Below are positions 8,965 to 29,627 of a stretch of 37,156 bases of DNA, piece after piece. The stretch's first letter is position 1. Each line of letters starts with the position of its first letter. This DNA comes from a virus: the IMG/VR virus record IMGVR_UViG_3300021074_000071, positions 1-37,156 of that record. The stretch is one strand, 5' to 3'. The translations under genes were made by a program, and so were the position numbers. The notes beneath the pieces are model-generated. The model saw only the letters and a list, made by a program, of their open reading frames with translations, searched no databases and was not told where the DNA came from.

Positions 8965-9536
8965 TATGCTTCTTTCCTCACTGCGACCACATAATCCTTT
9001 TGTAGGACTGTATGATTAGGTGTTTCAGCTAAGAACTTATCTATTCCAAGATGCGGGCAGTTATTATTGAATGGCCCGTTATATCCTTTAGGTAACCAAT
9101 TGTAGTCATCGAAGATCATAATGCCACCTACCTTAAGCAGCGGCCATGACATTACGCTGTCATTATATACGGACTGCATCCTGTGATCCCCGTCAATGAA
9201 TATGCAATCATACTCGTTAGCATGTAACTGTGGCAGCACATTACGGCTGTAGTCACATCTAAACTCACATCTTCTATCTCTTAAGTAAGAATACAGATTC
9301 TGTCTAATAGTAGTCTCCTGATCTTCTGCGATGTAATCCTCATAGCCTGGAATAGGATAAGGTGTACACGGGTCGATAGTTATTACTACTGATTCAGGCC
9401 AGTTCTTCAGGAGATACTCTGTGCTTCTTCCCTCGAACGTGCCTATCTCTAGGAACAAGCAGTAACCGCCCTTAAGATGCGAAAGATGCCTATCAAAGAT
9501 GTCTGTATTAAAGTCACACGTAGTAAACTTACCCAC
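8964..9536 (-). CDS. class I SAM-dependent methyltransferase (Methyltransf_24-like)
   Basis: 190 aa. FLEIGTFEGRSTEYLL is the SAM-binding motif I, VVITIDPC motif II, and YDCIFIDGDHRMQSVYND with WPLLKVGGIMIFDDYNW is typical of the Methyltransf_24/CmcI-like group often found beside glycosyltransferases and acting on sugars or small molecules. Start GTG 9536 has AGGAGG four bases upstream. It overlaps its upstream neighbour by 8 bp and the downstream gene by one base. The acceptor is unknown. Confidence 0.85.
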   Translation of the reverse strand: MGKFTTCDFNTDIFDRHLSHLKGGYCLFLEIGTFEGRSTEYLLKNWPESVVITIDPCTPYPIPGYEDYIAEDQETTIRQNLYSYLRDRRCEFRCDYSRNVLPQLHANEYDCIFIDGDHRMQSVYNDSVMSWPLLKVGGIMIFDDYNWLPKGYNGPFNNNCPHLGIDKFLAETPNHTVLQKDYVVAVRKEA

Positions 9537-21193: not shown

Positions 21194-21231
21194 AAAAAAA
21201 AAACCTCATACAGGGGTTAAGCTGTATGAGG
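21194..21231 (-). terminator. rho-independent terminator facing left, upstream of the leftward promoter
   Basis: Perfect 10-bp stem CCTCATACAG/CTGTATGAGG (21204-21213 and 21222-21231), 8-base loop, then ten T on the leftward strand (A10 at 21194-21203). There is no T-run on the rightward side. It would stop antisense transcription from the primase region before it enters the leftward operon. Confidence 0.8.
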
Positions 21232-21292
21232 CTCGAAAAATATAAACGGGACTAACCATTTAAGGACAGCTTAATAGCTGTATTGAAATCTA

Positions 21293-24464: not shown

Positions 24465-24766
24465 GGTGAGCACCTGGTGAGTACCTGCTAAAAACCGGCG
24501 AGCACCGGGGGGTAATTATCGCACAGGTACTCACCAGGTACTCACCGGTGCTCACCTGCTGTTTTGAAGAAAATATGTAATGATTACACAGAATGTTATA
24601 TCCAGGTACTCTGGTACTCACGGTACTCACCTTTTATTTACTAAAGGTCCAGAATGTACATAGGTAGTACAAAAAAGAACCCTAAAAGGGTAAAAAGGGG
24701 GGGTAGTAAAAAATATATAGAGGAGAGTACGAAAAATCGGTGAGTACCGTGAGTACCGTGAGTACC
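24465..24766. repeat. mirrored iteron block, candidate replication origin
   Basis: Twelve copies or near-copies of GGTGAGTACC in a 430-bp non-coding gap. Plus orientation: 24465, 24476, 24497 (variant). Minus orientation: 24526, 24537, 24547; then 24605, 24613, 24622 (partial variants). Plus: 24739, 24748, 24757. So four triads +++ --- --- +++, spaced 8-21 bp within triads. The first two plus copies and first two minus copies form a 23-bp inverted repeat with one mismatch. A+T-rich DNA (AAAAAATATATAG) lies between the outer groups at about 24708-24720, and another palindrome TGTAAT-G-ATTACA at about 24577. It directly follows the primase-helicase gene. Iteron-type origin or operator array; no protein has been linked to it. 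Confidence 0.7.
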
Positions 24767-24823
24767 TGTTTACATAATTACCGCAAGTCATTTTAAAATG
24801 TAGTTAAGTTGAAGGAGAAAAAC

Positions 24824-25114: not shown

Positions 25115-25164
25115 GCGAGCAGTTAGAATAGAGTCACAAGTGTCTTGCGGTTTCTTATGGGTCC

Positions 25165-25200
25165 CGTGACTTGCCGCGTGACTTGCCTTACTGCGTGACT
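25165..25200. repeat. short direct repeats CGTGACTTGCC
   Basis: CGTGACTTGCC at 25165-25175 and 25177-25187, then CGTGACT at 25194-25200. They sit in the 243-bp gap after the preceding gene, next to the two-hairpin element. Possible protein sites; nothing else explains them. Confidence 0.4.
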
Positions 25201-25208
25201 TTTAATAC

Positions 25209-25284
25209 AAACAGCCTTCGGCTGTTTGACTTCCGTAGTTAAGGTGTAACGGCGGTATAACAACCAGCCTCACGGCTGGTTTAA
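25209..25284 (-). repeat. two-hairpin RNA element, copy 1
   Basis: On the leftward strand AACCAGCC-GTGA-GGCTGGTT (25281-25262; a GNRA-type loop) is followed by a 34-nt linker and AAACAGCC-GAA-GGCTGTTT (25227-25209). Linker (TTATACC, CGTTACA, ACTACGGA) matches copy 2 at 24 of 34 positions with no gap. It lies 3' of the small gene at 25358; no start codon follows soon. Confidence 0.75.
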
Positions 25285-25311
25285 GCCTATACTGGTAAGC
25301 TACCTACTTTT

Positions 25312-25393
25312 TATCAAGATCCTATCAAGATCCTATCAAGATCCTATCAAGATCCTATCAAGATCCTATCAAGATCCTATTAGGATCTTGATA
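25312..25393. repeat. six tandem 11-bp repeats plus one inverted copy
   Basis: TATCAAGATCC six times head to tail (25312-25377), then its reverse complement at 25383-25393, so the last direct copy and the inverted copy form a palindrome with 13-bp arms. The 11-bp period places copies on roughly one face of the helix. It overlaps the last codons of the 64-aa gene. Unit has GATC. Protein-binding iterons or a terminator-like structure. Confidence 0.8.
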
Positions 25394-25552
25394 AATAGTC
25401 CAACAGTGATAATCGACATCTCCGCGCGTGACTGCCGTCCGGCAAGCCTTATACTTAATACCATTTTGACGTGTTAACCTATTAGCAGCTTGGATAGCGC
25501 GTGATTTTGTGGTGTACTGTCCGGCGCGTTCTTGCTCTTGGGTTATGTTCAT
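25358..25552 (-). CDS. hypothetical protein, 64 aa
   Basis: MNITQEQERAGQYTTKSRAI begins a small basic protein with an aromatic strand (DVDYHCWTIYQDP). Its last seven codons lie inside the 11-bp repeat array (QDPNRILIGS is encoded by repeat units), so the repeats expanded into the gene end or the gene borrowed a stop from them. ATG 25552 has GGAGAAAG upstream. Confidence 0.55.
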   Translation of the reverse strand: MNITQEQERAGQYTTKSRAIQAANRLTRQNGIKYKACRTAVTRGDVDYHCWTIYQDPNRILIGS

Positions 25553-25566
25553 TTAGGCTTTCTCCG

Positions 25567-25607
25567 AAAAAAAAAACCACGGCTATAGGTAATAGCCGTG
25601 GTTTTTG
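25567..25607 (-). terminator. bidirectional rho-independent terminator
   Basis: Stem CCACGGCTAT/ATAGCCGTGG (25577-25586 and 25592-25601), loop AGGTA, flanked by A10 on the left and T5 on the right. It ends leftward transcription of the RadC operon just after the 71-aa gene stop and would also stop rightward reads. Confidence 0.85.
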
Positions 25608-25614
25608 CGTGTCT

Positions 25615-25830
25615 TTATTCTTCGTTAGCGTAACATTCTGGGTGCTCATTATTCAGGTAAGCTTCGTACGCTCGCTTGTCGGTATCATCGATTATGGCGC
25701 TAACTAATAAATCATCGTTGGTGTTAGTAAGGCTAAGCAGCTTAGCTTTGAACTGCTCAAGGGTTATGTCGTATTTTTTACATATTAACGGTAACAGGTA
25801 AGTAAATGCTTCGTGATATGTGAGTTTCAT
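25615..25830 (-). CDS. hypothetical protein, 71 aa
   Basis: Helical acidic protein starting MKLTYHEAFTYLLPLICKKY and ending HPECYANEE. Its ATG overlaps the RadC-like gene stop (ATGA), so the two are coupled; a terminator follows at once. No family recognised. Confidence 0.6.
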   Translation of the reverse strand: MKLTYHEAFTYLLPLICKKYDITLEQFKAKLLSLTNTNDDLLVSAIIDDTDKRAYEAYLNNEHPECYANEE

Positions 25831-26264
25831 AGTTTGCCTTGTTCCTTATATGATATGTAAGATGTTTCAGTAACAATTAAAAAATCTAGTAGCTGTAAGT
25901 TTAATAATTCGCCTGCTTGCTTTAGTTTGTCGCAGATTGATTGATCTTCTTTGCTGGATAGCAGGGAACCGCTAGGGTGGTTATGCACTAGGATTATAGT
26001 GTTAGCAGTGGCGGTTAGTGCAATTGAAAAAACTATACGGGGATCTATTGCACTAAAGTTAAAACCGCCGGAACTAATCTTTACCCAACCAAAGATTTCG
26101 TTGTTTCCGTTCAAGCAAAACATCAGCACTTCTTCTTGGTATGCGAGAGTACCGGCCTTGCTTAAGATGGTGCGCGCGTGGTTTGCAACCATTTCAGGGT
26201 TAGTCATTGGCTCTGTTTTTGTGGTTTTGCTTTTGGTGTAGCGTAGTGTGATTTGTGGTAGCAT
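25827..26264 (-). CDS. RadC-like JAB/MPN-domain protein
   Basis: 145 aa, only the JAB domain with no N-terminal helix-hairpin-helix region. YQEEVLMFCLNGNNEIFGW, ISSGGFNFSAIDPRIVFSIA and ILVHNHPSGSLLSSKED give the JAMM metal site (E44 or E45, H94, H96, D107). The phrasing resembles small RadC proteins frequent in Bacteroidota mobile elements. Function is unknown despite the historic DNA-repair name. ATG 26264 has no ribosome binding site; a two-hairpin element ends 10 bases upstream. Confidence 0.88.
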   Translation of the reverse strand: MLPQITLRYTKSKTTKTEPMTNPEMVANHARTILSKAGTLAYQEEVLMFCLNGNNEIFGWVKISSGGFNFSAIDPRIVFSIALTATANTIILVHNHPSGSLLSSKEDQSICDKLKQAGELLNLQLLDFLIVTETSYISYKEQGKL

Positions 26265-26274
26265 GGTTTATTAC

Positions 26275-26350
26275 AACCAGCCTCACGGCTGGTTTATCTC
26301 CATAGTAATGATGTAACGTTGGTATAGCAACCAGCCTCACGGCTGGTTTA
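26275..26350 (-). repeat. two-hairpin RNA element, copy 2, in the RadC-like gene leader
   Basis: Leftward strand: AACCAGCC-GTGA-GGCTGGTT twice (26348-26329 and 26294-26275), separated by a 34-nt linker homologous to copy 1 (CTATACC, CGTTACA, ACTATGGA). It ends 10 bases before the RadC-like ATG, where no Shine-Dalgarno is present, so it may set translation of that gene or mark a processing site. Confidence 0.75.
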
Positions 26351-26365
26351 AGGTGATACTTTAGG

Positions 26366-26554
26366 TTAGTTATTTGCCATTATGGTTAGTATATACCGGC
26401 AACAAGCCTCTTCATTACTTAGCTTGTTATCGGTGAGATTAAGCAGCTGATTAAGATGTATTGCTAGTGTTTTCTTGCGTGACTTTAGTACATATTGTTT
26501 TACGGCACTTAGATTGCCATTCATATAATTATCCAATAATTCGATAGTTGTCAT
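26366..26554 (-). CDS. hypothetical helical protein, 62 aa
   Basis: MTTIELLDNYMNGNLSAVKQ starts an all-helical small protein ending CRYILTIMANN. No Shine-Dalgarno; the leader has the ACTAACC-CATAACTAAC repeat shared with three other genes of this module. Function unknown. Confidence 0.55.
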   Translation of the reverse strand: MTTIELLDNYMNGNLSAVKQYVLKSRKKTLAIHLNQLLNLTDNKLSNEEACCRYILTIMANN

Positions 26555-26581
26555 TGGTAGTATAAGTTAGTTATGGGTTAG

Positions 26582-26619
26582 TAATTCAGCGAGTACCGCT
26601 AACGGTACTCTGTGAATTA
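26582..26619. repeat. intergenic inverted repeat with GAGTACC arms
   Basis: TAATTCA (26582-26588) ... GAGTACCG-CTAA-CGGTACTC (26591-26610) ... TGAATTA (26613-26619): two nested stems separated by 2-base internal loops. Same design as 27021-27060. No T-run, so not a standard terminator. The GAGTACC core is also the core of the 24.4-24.8 kb iterons. Confidence 0.65.
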
Positions 26620-26626
26620 TTACGTC

Positions 26627-26986
26627 CTATTCGCAAAAGTAAGCTATAGCGTTAATAGTATAATTTCGTTTTGAGTGATTATAGCAAATAGTCGATTTAT
26701 AACTATCGCCCATATTTATATAGTCGATTATCCAAGCGTTATCATCTTGACTAGTGTTTTCCTTTCTTATTGCTTCGATACCGAATCCACCAATAATACT
26801 TTGAATTATATGCAGTTTGACATCGTATTTAGCGGGGTTATTATAGCACTCATCTATTCGTTGCTTGCCTGCAGGATAACTCTCTAATTGCCAGTAATCA
26901 GTTTCAGCTAATACTTGCAGTATTGTATTAGCTTCGCTTCGTTCAAGCTGAAACTCCTTCATTAATTTAGGTATGGTTATGCGCAT
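26627..26986 (-). CDS. hypothetical protein, 119 aa
   Basis: N-terminal half MRITIPKLMKEFQLERSEAN helical; C-terminal half IIGGFGIEAIRK ... YINMGDSYKSTICYNHSKR follows the 'GxxGIEAI...Y.N.GDxY..T..Y' pattern of a widespread small phage/mobile-element protein of unknown role. ATG 26986 lacks a strong ribosome binding site (ATGAGG is 12 bases away) and has the shared ACTAAC-type leader. Confidence 0.6.
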   Translation of the reverse strand: MRITIPKLMKEFQLERSEANTILQVLAETDYWQLESYPAGKQRIDECYNNPAKYDVKLHIIQSIIGGFGIEAIRKENTSQDDNAWIIDYINMGDSYKSTICYNHSKRNYTINAIAYFCE

Positions 26987-27020
26987 AATGACTTAGCCTC
27001 ATGTTTTAGTTATGTGGTTA

Positions 27021-27060
27021 GTAATTAATCGGGTACTGCTAGCAGTACCCTGGTAATTAC
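27021..27060. repeat. intergenic inverted repeat, partner of 26582-26619
   Basis: GTAATTA (27021-27027) ... GGGTACTGCT-AGCAGTACCC (27031-27050, perfect palindrome) ... TAATTAC (27054-27060). Outer arms and inner GTAC-containing stem match the layout of the element 440 bp to the left. It includes the clamp gene's stop codon and lies upstream of the 119-aa gene. Confidence 0.65.
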
Positions 27061-28028
27061 TTTTCCATTTTGCAAGGCATAACTATCGACGCGCAACTAA
27101 GATCTCCGATTAATAGCGGTCCCATGGGATCATGTAGATGTAGCGTAGTATTTAACGTGTTTTGTAAAGCTGTTAAAAGGTAAGATGCACAATAGCAGTA
27201 GTTAGCAGATAACACCGGCGACTCTAATATAAAGTTAAGTGGTATCTTTAACTGTAGTGCAGCTGATTTAAAATTACATTGACCGTCTTTATGCAATGTA
27301 ACTGTGTCGAAAGTATACTCATCTATACGTTTTGGTTTTAATGCGGTGAGTGCTTTTAGTGCTCCGTACGCTAATACTACGTTATGACTAGGTGAACCGG
27401 TAGGAATAACCTGCTTGTAATCCGGGTACTGGCTGTCGAGTAAACGACAACCAAGAATAACATTACTATCATAATATAACCATAACTTATCATCAGCTAT
27501 TATCAGCTTTGCATGTTTTCCCGGTAATAGTTTACTAGCTTTGATTAGTGCGACACAAAACGCTGTAGGGATAATTATTGACGGTGAATCGGTAGGTAAG
27601 ATGTCGGTAGTCTCGTAATGTACGATGTGGCCATTAGTTGAGACAAGATGCTCGCGGTTAACATGTATACCCATTAGGTTATGTCGAGCGTTGTCGGTAG
27701 AGGTAAAAGGTAAACAGCGTTTAAGCTGCTCCACCAGTACATCGACGTTTAGTTCCCTTGCGTGGTGGTTTTCTCCGTACGTGGGGATTAGCGGGAATTG
27801 ATCTAGTTCGGTGTCTGGAATAATAGCTGTTTTGCCGATTAATGCTAGTTTTTCAGGGGAGTAACAACCGGGTGCTACAGCTATTGGAGGGAGCGTACAA
27901 TAGATGTCAAGGGTAGTAGCGCGCGTATTTTCAGGAGTACACGCAACTTGCTTGAGCACAGGCATAGTGCGTGATTTGCGACTTGCAAACAGTTGAGCTA
28001 TTTTGATTATGTTAGTTTGTGTAAGCAT
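27057..28028 (-). CDS. DNA polymerase sliding clamp (DnaN/beta-like)
   Basis: About 323 aa from ATG 28028. ASRKSRTMPVLKQVACTPEN at the start, FTSTDNARHNLMGIHVNREH and LVSTNGHIVHYET in the second domain, CRLLDSQYPDYKQVIP before the third, and a final LSCASIVMPCKMEK in place of the usual 'IMPMR' end all follow the bacterial beta-clamp pattern, with low identity. Clamps tether polymerase to DNA; here the partner would be the phage PolA or a host enzyme. No clamp loader gene is seen. The frame extends to 28082, but 28028 has the ACTAACT leader next to ATG like its neighbours, with no Shine-Dalgarno. Confidence 0.8.
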   Translation of the reverse strand: MLTQTNIIKIAQLFASRKSRTMPVLKQVACTPENTRATTLDIYCTLPPIAVAPGCYSPEKLALIGKTAIIPDTELDQFPLIPTYGENHHARELNVDVLVEQLKRCLPFTSTDNARHNLMGIHVNREHLVSTNGHIVHYETTDILPTDSPSIIIPTAFCVALIKASKLLPGKHAKLIIADDKLWLYYDSNVILGCRLLDSQYPDYKQVIPTGSPSHNVVLAYGALKALTALKPKRIDEYTFDTVTLHKDGQCNFKSAALQLKIPLNFILESPVLSANYCYCASYLLTALQNTLNTTLHLHDPMGPLLIGDLSCASIVMPCKMEK

Positions 28029-28116
28029 AGTTAGTCTCTGGTTATGTATTAGTAATATTGCACTATAATATCCGTGCATCATACAGCCTAGGCGATCTAG
28101 GCTGTATTGTGCATGT

Positions 28117-28362
28117 TTATACCTTGCAGTACTCCCTAATTACAGCTAATGCGTCGTCGGTAGTCATACCGACACATTCATCAGGCCAAATATTTTGCTT
28201 AGCGTATATCTCTACTGCTAGGCGGATAATCTGATCCTGTAACCGCCATAATCGGGATATGGTATTATCCCGCATGTTATTGGTTACATCAGTAATAGTT
28301 ATTGGATCGCCAAATATATCTAGGTGGGTAGTCATAGTCATAGTCTCATCAGAGTGTTGCAT
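28117..28362 (-). CDS. hypothetical protein, 81 aa
   Basis: HLDIFGDPITITDVTNNMRD leads into a helical region and ends DDALAVIREYCKV. First gene of the leftward half of the module; it starts 50 bp from the palindromic operator at 28414. No Shine-Dalgarno; the leader contains ACTAACC-ATAACTAAC and GACTAAC right before ATG 28362. Function unknown. Confidence 0.6.
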   Translation of the reverse strand: MQHSDETMTMTTHLDIFGDPITITDVTNNMRDNTISRLWRLQDQIIRLAVEIYAKQNIWPDECVGMTTDDALAVIREYCKV

Positions 28363-28413
28363 AGTGTTAGTCTCGTTAGTTATGGTTAGTAGTAGTTATA
28401 CACTGCAAATTAT

Positions 28414-28434
28414 TGTGTATAATAGTTATACACA
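28414..28434. promoter_or_regulatory. palindromic operator at the module's divergent control region
   Basis: TGTGTATAA-TAG-TTATACACA is a perfect 9-3-9 inverted repeat containing TATAAT-like sequence on the plus strand (28418-28423). TAGTTATACAC occurs again at 28393-28403, 30 bp away in direct orientation, so a second half-site exists. A repressor site is likely; the exact promoters were not resolved. Confidence 0.6.
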
Positions 28435-28944
28435 CTAAAGTGCTTTGTTTTTATTTTTTCTCTAATATCAACCTACTTCGTTTTATCAGTATCTGTCAAC
28501 CTTTTGTTTACAATTATTTTCGCAAATAAAAAAAAACTTTCTTACCTCTTTATATGTGCGCCGAACCATCACCAAAACATAATGCCCGATAAGTAACCTT
28601 ATTTGGCAATTGATCACCTTATCACACCTAATCACATCTAAGCATGACAAGCCGACATCAAGATAGGTGTGCTTTGTCGTGTCCTGCTATGTCTCAATTT
28701 TGGGACAAGGAATCTCTTAGTTATTGGCTGGACGGAGAGTCGCTGCAACGATGCCCCCCGCGTGTGCCCGCATCATATAGAGTCCCACAGTGCTCTAGCC
28801 GGAACACCACCTACGCACTACCTACGTAACATCTTAAAATCATTGATGATTTTAACTAACATAAAATATCCTATAGCCCCAAAACTAAATGTAAACACAA
28901 TGTTACCTATTGATTGCGAACACTTATCATGCTATCCTCCTACT
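28435..28944. other. 510-bp non-coding control region
   Basis: Holds an A/T-rich left part (to about 28550), then a GC-richer block at about 28730-28810. TGTCTCAA-TT-TTGGGACA near 28690 is a one-mismatch inverted repeat. Rightward frames here do not look protein-like (no conserved pattern, no ribosome binding site). Just before the next gene, TTGATT-17-TATCCT (28910-28938) could be a promoter whose start would fall at the ATG itself (leaderless); weak. Possible structured RNA; nothing recognised. Confidence 0.4.
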
Positions 28945-29199
28945 ATGAGCAATACACCTGAAGTTATGAGTCGTGAGATTACGATGCAGAATAACCCGGA
29001 TGAGGTTATCGAAGCGGATTTACGCTCATTGCATCTTATCTTATGCAAACTTGAAACAGCATGGCACTATGCAGAGACGATAGACGATACGTGTAAACTT
29101 ACTTTAACTACACTGAAGGTAATGGAGCATAGGCGAAAGACATTAGGTATTGATGTTAGCCCAGGTAAGCAAGTATACCTAACACCCTATGACAGTTAA
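28945..29199 (+). CDS. small protein resembling phage terminase small subunits, 84 aa
   Basis: MSNTPEVMSREITMQNNPDE then LRSLHLILCKLETAWHYAET and KLTLTTLKVMEHRRKTLGID: a helical pair ending in 'RRxxLGID', as at the end of many phage small terminase-like proteins. The frame is open from 28669, but the upstream part is not protein-like and the best start is ATG 28945. No Shine-Dalgarno. Lies 0.7 kb from the convergent large terminase gene. The terminase link is a suggestion only. Confidence 0.45.
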   Translation: MSNTPEVMSREITMQNNPDEVIEADLRSLHLILCKLETAWHYAETIDDTCKLTLTTLKVMEHRRKTLGIDVSPGKQVYLTPYDS

Positions 29200-29214
29200 C
29201 GTAACGGTGTATCC

Positions 29215-29292
29215 TTAAACCAGCCGTGAGACTGGTTATTACACCTACTGTTAAGGAGAAGCCTACGGAAAACAAACAGCCGTAGGCTGTTT
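29215..29292 (+). repeat. two-hairpin RNA element, copy 3, in a rightward leader
   Basis: Plus strand: AACCAGCC-GTGA-GACTGGTT (29218-29237, one C-A mismatch, loop kept), a 36-nt linker with TTACACCT and CTACGGAA as in copy 1, then AAACAGCC-GTA-GGCTGTTT (29274-29292). It ends five bases before ATG 29298. Orientation follows the direction of transcription, opposite in strand to copies 1 and 2. Confidence 0.75.
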
Positions 29293-29297
29293 GTACT

Positions 29298-29627
29298 ATG
29301 GCATACTACCTACAAGCTGAACCCCATTGGAGTCTAGACTTCGCGATTAAACGATTCTGTAACGACGCTGATGTAAAGATAGTCACTGTTGATGACTTAT
29401 TAGATTTGGATGTAGTTACACTAGACCTGCGCATTCCAGTAAAAGAAGCCCTAGACAAAATTGACTGCCTAATACCTCCGTATGGCGTTGCACTGTTCCA
29501 CCCTGACTCTGTGATGTCCTACCTAAAACGCAGAGCTAAGCGCTGCTTACGTAAAGCTCAAGTAGAAACGCTCGCGCAAATTAAAGAGTTACAACGGACT
29601 AGACTAGAGAATCAAGCTGATGTGTGA
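29298..29627 (+). CDS. hypothetical protein, 109 aa
   Basis: MAYYLQAEPHWSLDFAIKRF, then an acidic Leu/Val strand-rich region (VDDLLDLDVVTLDLRIP) and a basic coiled-coil-like C terminus. No Shine-Dalgarno in contact with the ATG; AAGGAG lies 40 bases upstream, before the hairpin. Overlaps the next gene by 8 bp. First gene of the rightward head/packaging set. Confidence 0.6.
   Translation: MAYYLQAEPHWSLDFAIKRFCNDADVKIVTVDDLLDLDVVTLDLRIPVKEALDKIDCLIPPYGVALFHPDSVMSYLKRRAKRCLRKAQVETLAQIKELQRTRLENQADV

Follow-up and report, generated by a model that had tools for sequence, protein, structure and literature searches.

A duplicated double stem-loop element at gene boundaries in a small-gene cluster of a tailed-phage-like virus

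Introduction

Repeated intergenic hairpins are common in the accessory regions of phages, and their role is unsettled even in models such as the cluster K mycobacteriophages. The latter carry repeated, gene-oriented inverted-repeat elements directly upstream of the starts of non-structural genes: SAS, a 13-bp sequence containing a Shine-Dalgarno (SD) motif, and ESAS, composed of one pair of 17-bp arms (PMC3203893). Cluster O mycobacteriophages contain 17-bp inverted repeats in 34 copies, a third of which are located inside genes, with no clear orientation (PMC4351075). Promoter-stem-loop (PeSL) cassettes, placed between small accessory genes of T4-type phages, have a proposed role in module shuffling (Arbiol 2010 and Comeau 2014, cited in PMC4503421).

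Other described RNA structures resemble the element reported here in their composition: (i) the leaders of T4 genes 38 and 25, in which a hairpin between the SD sequence and the AUG shortens the distance from 22 to 5 nt and from 27 to 11 nt, respectively (PMC3014915), (ii) the put RNA of HK022, a two-stem RNA of approx. 70 nt present on the divergent early transcripts, whose long, bulged stems are separated by a single junction nucleotide (PMC9378689), and (iii) the dual-hairpin RNA recognized by ANTAR proteins, with hexaloops containing A1 and G4 (PMC3369931).

This study concerns a double stem-loop present in three copies in IMG/VR record IMGVR_UViG_3300021074_000071, whose positions 1 to 37,156 (37,156 nt) constitute the window analysed.

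Results and Discussion

The virus genome is tailed-phage-like and encodes a DNA polymerase of the polymerase I family (phrog_17), a primase/helicase, an SNF2-type helicase and an Enc34-type single-strand DNA-binding protein. A second IMG/VR record (28,952 bases) is 100% identical to the window over 20.8 kb and extends 8.2 kb further. A protein search of IMG/VR with the 636-aa and 1027-aa ORFs matched the same virus only, and at the nucleotide level the phage collection contained no relative of the 25.1-29.7 kb region. The three copies lie within a 4-kb region of small ORFs, several of which are without family matches. An ORF of this accessory cluster (27057-28028, minus strand) is sliding-clamp-like (DNA_pol3_beta_2, E 6e-5, which is below the curated cut-off).

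The initial annotation had correctly located the copies at 25284-25209 (-), 26350-26275 (-) and 29215-29292 (+), but the length that it gave, 76-78 nt, is too short: the element spans approx. 90 nt, with a previously missed outer stem enclosing hairpin 1 (Table 1). Read on the coding strand, it consists of GTRTA, six bases ending with CTTA, AACCAGCC-GTGA-GRCTGGTT, two bases, TAYAC (which pairs with GTRTA) and C, followed by a linker of approx. 28 nt containing CTAYGGA, the second hairpin and GTANTA. The outer stem is GUAUA/UAUAC in copy A, GUAU/AUAC in copy B, where the innermost pair is lost, and GUGUA/UACAC in copy C. The first stem, annotated as AACCAGCC/GGCTGGTT with a GTGA loop, is exact in copies A and B, while copy C carries one C.A mismatch (GACTGGTT). 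The second hairpin of copy B exactly duplicates its own first stem, whereas copies A and C share a different second stem.

Table 1. Location and structure of the stem-loops of the small-gene cluster
Feature	Coordinates	Strand	Structure
Copy A	25203-25292	-	Outer stem, hairpin 1 (GTGA loop), linker, hairpin 2 AAACAGCC-GAA-GGCTGTTT
Copy B	26269-26359	-	Hairpins 1 and 2 both AACCAGCC-GTGA-GGCTGGTT
Copy C	29207-29298	+	Hairpin 1 with one C.A mismatch; hairpin 2 AAACAGCC-GTA-GGCTGTTT
Second-kind stem-loop, copy 1	26576-26622	-	Outer stem of 7 bp and inner stem of 8 bp, separated by an internal loop; immediately follows stop 26627
Second-kind stem-loop, copy 2	27016-27061	-	Overlaps the stop codon at 27057
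Two-tier stem-loop	28080-28114	-	UGCA-ca-AUACAGCCUAG...CUAGGCUGUAU-ga-UGCA; immediately follows stop 28117; z -5.3
Canonical bidirectional intrinsic terminator	25572-25606	-	15-bp stem, T10 on the minus strand; contrasts with the elements

An alignment of the three copies (93 columns) revealed that 36 of 42 hairpin columns are invariant, including all four of the GTGA loop, compared with 11 of 28 in the linker (Fisher p=8e-5). The hairpins are thus far better preserved, which argues that the copies are not simply decaying duplicates. Standard pairs occupy 95.5% of the pair cells, and the folding z-scores of the copies are -3.9, -3.3 and -2.5. Two linker patterns match exactly these three sites, with 0.00 expected in shuffled sequences, and the copies are thus not a product of chance. 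The initial annotation proposed a search for compensatory changes, and two double-sided exchanges were seen among these copies, all from one virus: A-U/G-C in the outer stem (copy C) and A-U/C-G in stem 2. None appeared in slid controls; the shuffle control of covariation was weak, with 49 of 500 shuffles reaching the observed value.

Further stem-loops accompany these copies. When all gaps of at least 20 nt were folded and compared with shuffles, each of the six co-directional gaps between 25.5 and 29.3 kb gave a better fold than its shuffled versions (z -2.5 to -5.3), whereas most gaps in the operon at 5-21 kb had a z close to 0. One other kind of stem-loop is also duplicated (Table 1), and a comparison of its two copies revealed three double-sided compensatory changes. 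Stem-loops behind stop codons thus form a set in this one small-gene cluster, and the three copies of the double stem-loop are the largest among them.

The five double-sided changes observed in the two kinds of structure include no G.U intermediate, and the other departures from pairing are mismatches. Such a pattern also fits a templated correction of palindromes at the DNA level, and it counts against a function in mRNA. The element might then be a dispersed palindromic DNA repeat that recombination maintains or a protein binds, and that marks the boundaries of gene cassettes, in the manner of the PeSLs of T4-type phages or the 17-bp repeats of cluster O mycobacteriophages. Its perfect palindromes, the clustering of the copies in a 4-kb region of small ORFs, the inversion of copy C and the lack of a gene downstream of copy A, as after module exchange, all agree with this. 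However, every copy is oriented with the genes and lies in a gap, both the outer stem and the asymmetric linker motif have been kept, and the similarity does not extend into the neighbouring genes, and we consider a DNA-level repeat unlikely.

All three copies lie entirely between genes, whereas only approx. 5% of all 76-nt placements in the window would do so. The stop codon at 26366 and the start codon (26264) of a gene encoding a RadC-domain protein (PF04002, E 2e-32) delimit the gap filled by copy B; this start is credible, since phage RadC homologues align from residues 1 to 4 onwards. Copy C fills the gap between a stop at 29199 and a start at 29298. Hairpin 1 of both begins 16 nt after the stop codon. 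As annotated, the cores of copies B and C end 10 and 5 nt before the ATGs at 26264 and 29298, with no local SD sequence. Starts 26554, 28028 and 28362 of the same cluster also lack an SD sequence, so that its absence characterizes the cluster rather than the element.

The placement before start codons holds for two of the three copies. Copy A is the last element of the leftward cluster and is located between convergent genes; downstream of it there is no ORF starting with ATG, GTG or TTG. It starts 74 nt after the stop codon of a 64-aa ORF, and most of the intervening sequence is taken up by approx. six tandem 11-bp repeats TATCAAGATCC (25312-25390), overlapping the end of the 25358-25552 ORF. 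The original distance of copy A from the stop may have matched that of copies B and C before the repeat array.

The element is repeated, conserved in structure, intergenic and co-oriented with the genes, which supports the initial annotation in part. Its argument that an element which flips strand with the genes must act as RNA is weak, since promoters, terminators and operators flip with genes too, and the odds of three copies agreeing are approx. 1 in 4 to 1 in 8. Nor does the GTGA loop identify the strand: the opposite one gives UCAC in stem 1, and c(UUCG)g and c(UACG)g in the second stems of copies A and C, respectively. UUCG, UACG and UCAC loops are stable tetraloops as well. The sole one-sided change in stem 1, that of copy C, leaves the coding strand with a C.A mismatch but gives a G.U pair on the opposite strand.

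The location of copy A, between convergent genes, is where a two-way terminator would be expected, and the stems have G/C cores with AA(A)/TT(T) on either side. The elements could accordingly be tandem weak bidirectional intrinsic terminators or attenuators, of which copy A ends two convergent transcripts while copies B and C let only some polymerases pass into the next gene. Stems of the same letters with T-tracts form terminator-like hairpins in two unrelated contigs, L064 (T8) and L019, which makes descent from terminators possible, and in a third contig, L065, the same stem occurs twice in tandem downstream of a stop codon. Nevertheless, a U-tract is absent after all six hairpins, which therefore differ from G/C-rich hairpins followed by a U-tract, and a terminator scan listed canonical terminators but none of the three copies. 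The best-form D scores (d'Aubenton-Carafa type, own implementation) range from -1 to -57, compared with +17 to +53 for the canonical terminators of the phage (25572-25606 on both strands and 21201-21234 on the minus strand); copy A has a borderline hairpin 1, whose score of -1.0 on the sense strand is just under the terminator cut-off. Plain terminators would, moreover, need neither a conserved loop nor CTAYGGA. A terminator function is rather unlikely on this evidence.

At 25546-25606, the canonical terminator in the leftward operon (25572-25606, T10 on the minus strand) is directly followed by a gene with its own SD sequence (GGAG), with no room for a promoter, which suggests read-through or antitermination. 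This arrangement would suit a processive antitermination site of the nut/put type, acting on two divergent early transcripts. A predicted two-stem RNA of 70-90 nt is present on both arms of the divergent promoter region, and on the rightward arm copy C is located after the first gene; by comparison, putR lies approx. 270 nt into its transcript (PMC9378689). Copy A, however, is placed at the end of the operon, with nothing downstream to read, and four genes precede copy B. By eye, a boxA-like sequence was not apparent in all three copies, and there is no Rfam match. The stems also differ from those of HK022 put, being short and separated by a linker of approx. 28 nt, with one copy at an operon end. 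An antitermination site is thus very improbable. A resemblance of the linker to boxA, judged by eye only, was dropped. The two small hairpins joined by a linker recall ANTAR targets as well, but their loops comprise 3-4 nt (GTGA, GAA, GTA) instead of six.

The invariant GTGA loop could also be part of a translational switch or repressor site, with a protein binding the hairpin 2 region, or with hairpin 2 of copy C competing with an alternative stem, GCCUACGG/CCGUAGGC. The two mutually exclusive hairpins of copy C have nearly equal computed energies (-13.3 and -12.7 kcal/mol). The alternative stem contains a mismatch in copy A and is weak in copy B, and is thus not conserved; such a switch is hardly probable.

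The three copies are the only ones in 45 kb of phage sequence (the window plus the overlapping contig). Pattern scans of IMG/VR returned only the same virus and contigs of unrelated context, and a pattern scan of GTDB genomes gave 35 matches, none of which carries the element; several of these are freshwater cyanobacterial, share one other conserved sequence and resemble coding DNA. Nothing above chance was detected at the nucleotide level in INPHARED and plasmids, and a covariance model gave no match over 299 genomes of one phylum, a result that would be informative only for a known host. There was no Rfam match at the gathering score, and none over the elements at E<=10. The initial annotation would have regarded the lack of further copies as refuting the element. 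None occurs in the collections searched, which does not refute it, because no related phage is among them. Its statement that no such element has been described holds for the sequence, unmatched in Rfam and the sequence collections, but not for the general kind, which is known in phages.

The scans and the inspection of the window also revealed several other repeats. Contig L065 (IMGVR_UViG_3300048997_000349), from an unrelated virus, contains between 5057 and 14146 approx. twelve TTGTTCCCGGGAACAA-like palindromes, several of them followed by ACTGAGGAGAG..ATG (SD plus ATG); start-associated palindromes are thus not rare. The tandem pair of this contig, AACCAGCCTATAGGCTGGTT, is located at 9093-9144. 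A 75-nt gap in contig L018 (IMGVR_UViG_3300042352_001184, 2554-2628) contains two hairpins, one of them CCAGCCTCACGGCTGG as in the present element, between a stop codon and an SD sequence plus ATG; this is a different virus, and the resemblance is probably convergent. Within the window, a 432-nt gap after the primase gene contains dense GGTGAGTACC / GGTACTCACC repeats in both orientations (24465-24790, z -8.4), which are possibly replication-origin iterons or an operator array. The divergent promoter region (28363-28945) includes an operator-like GTGTATAACTATTATACAC palindrome (28395-28433) and a further GTGTATAAC half. TTATACC, considered as a half-operator similar to GTTATACAC at 28395-28433, was rejected, its frequency being as chance predicts; a shared leader motif, CTAACCNATAACTAA, was rejected as not above chance. 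A AAGTCACGC-like sequence occurs on the minus strand at 25158-25201, 25426, 25499, 25607, 26477 and 27969; with up to one mismatch, the window contains 12 matches against 6 expected, and none of 100 shuffles had as many.

Conclusions

The element is new as a sequence and known as a kind, and a role at gene boundaries in mRNA is the most likely one. As judged from the sequence, we consider it a double stem-loop that is intercistronic and, in a single phage, has been duplicated at gene boundaries; it may act in mRNA, and we assign this reading a probability of roughly 0.4. Its most likely role is that of mRNA punctuation, insulating the genes on either side. The position of the copies, their conserved pairing, the preservation of stems over linker and the stem-loop in each co-directional gap are observed, while action as RNA and every step of the following mechanism are inferred.

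Once the ribosome has left the upstream gene, the outer stem and hairpin 1 would fold just behind the stop codon. They would shield the upstream message on its 3' side from 3'-5' exonucleases and would, in part, oppose read-through. The linker, mostly single-stranded, would be open to endonuclease cleavage or would act as a ribosome standby site. Hairpin 2 would then close the 5' side of the next cistron and bring the upstream GGA/GGAG near the AUG. The linear distance between the two is 28 nt in copy C and 33 nt in copy B; if hairpin 2 is looped out, the effective distance becomes 5 and 13 nt, respectively, similar to that in the leaders of T4 genes 38 and 25. The present element differs from these leaders in that the SD-like sequence is only GGA(G), an additional hairpin is present further upstream and no gene follows one of the copies; the SD-like GGA of copies A and C is short. 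Since copy A lacks a start codon, the function common to all three copies would concern the 3' side of the upstream gene, and a leader function fits at most two of the three. It is quite improbable that the element is a single duplicated RNA cassette, uniting a guard of the upstream 3' end, a processing or standby linker and a hairpin-bridged ribosome site that replaces an ordinary SD sequence.

Like SAS/ESAS, the element places an inverted repeat, in the orientation of the gene, 10 nt (copy B) and 5 nt (copy C), but not in copy A, before a start codon. It differs in having two separate hairpins and in beginning just behind a stop codon, and the 13-bp SAS (GGGATAGGAGCCC) is absent before the starts of copies B and C. 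The palindromes of cluster O mycobacteriophages are also repeated, many of them in short intergenic regions, whereas the three copies described here are oriented and all intergenic. PeSL shares the location of stem-loop cassettes between small accessory genes, and in PeSL an early promoter is joined to the stem-loop. No sigma-70-like site is listed within the present elements and no early promoter was found in or beside them, although host promoters may differ.

If the hairpin-bridged start were true, a trick of two T4 genes would be extended to a reusable cassette. The small-gene cluster, with a stem-loop in every co-directional gap and two kinds of these duplicated, offers a compact test of effects on mRNA stability, read-through or translation starts.
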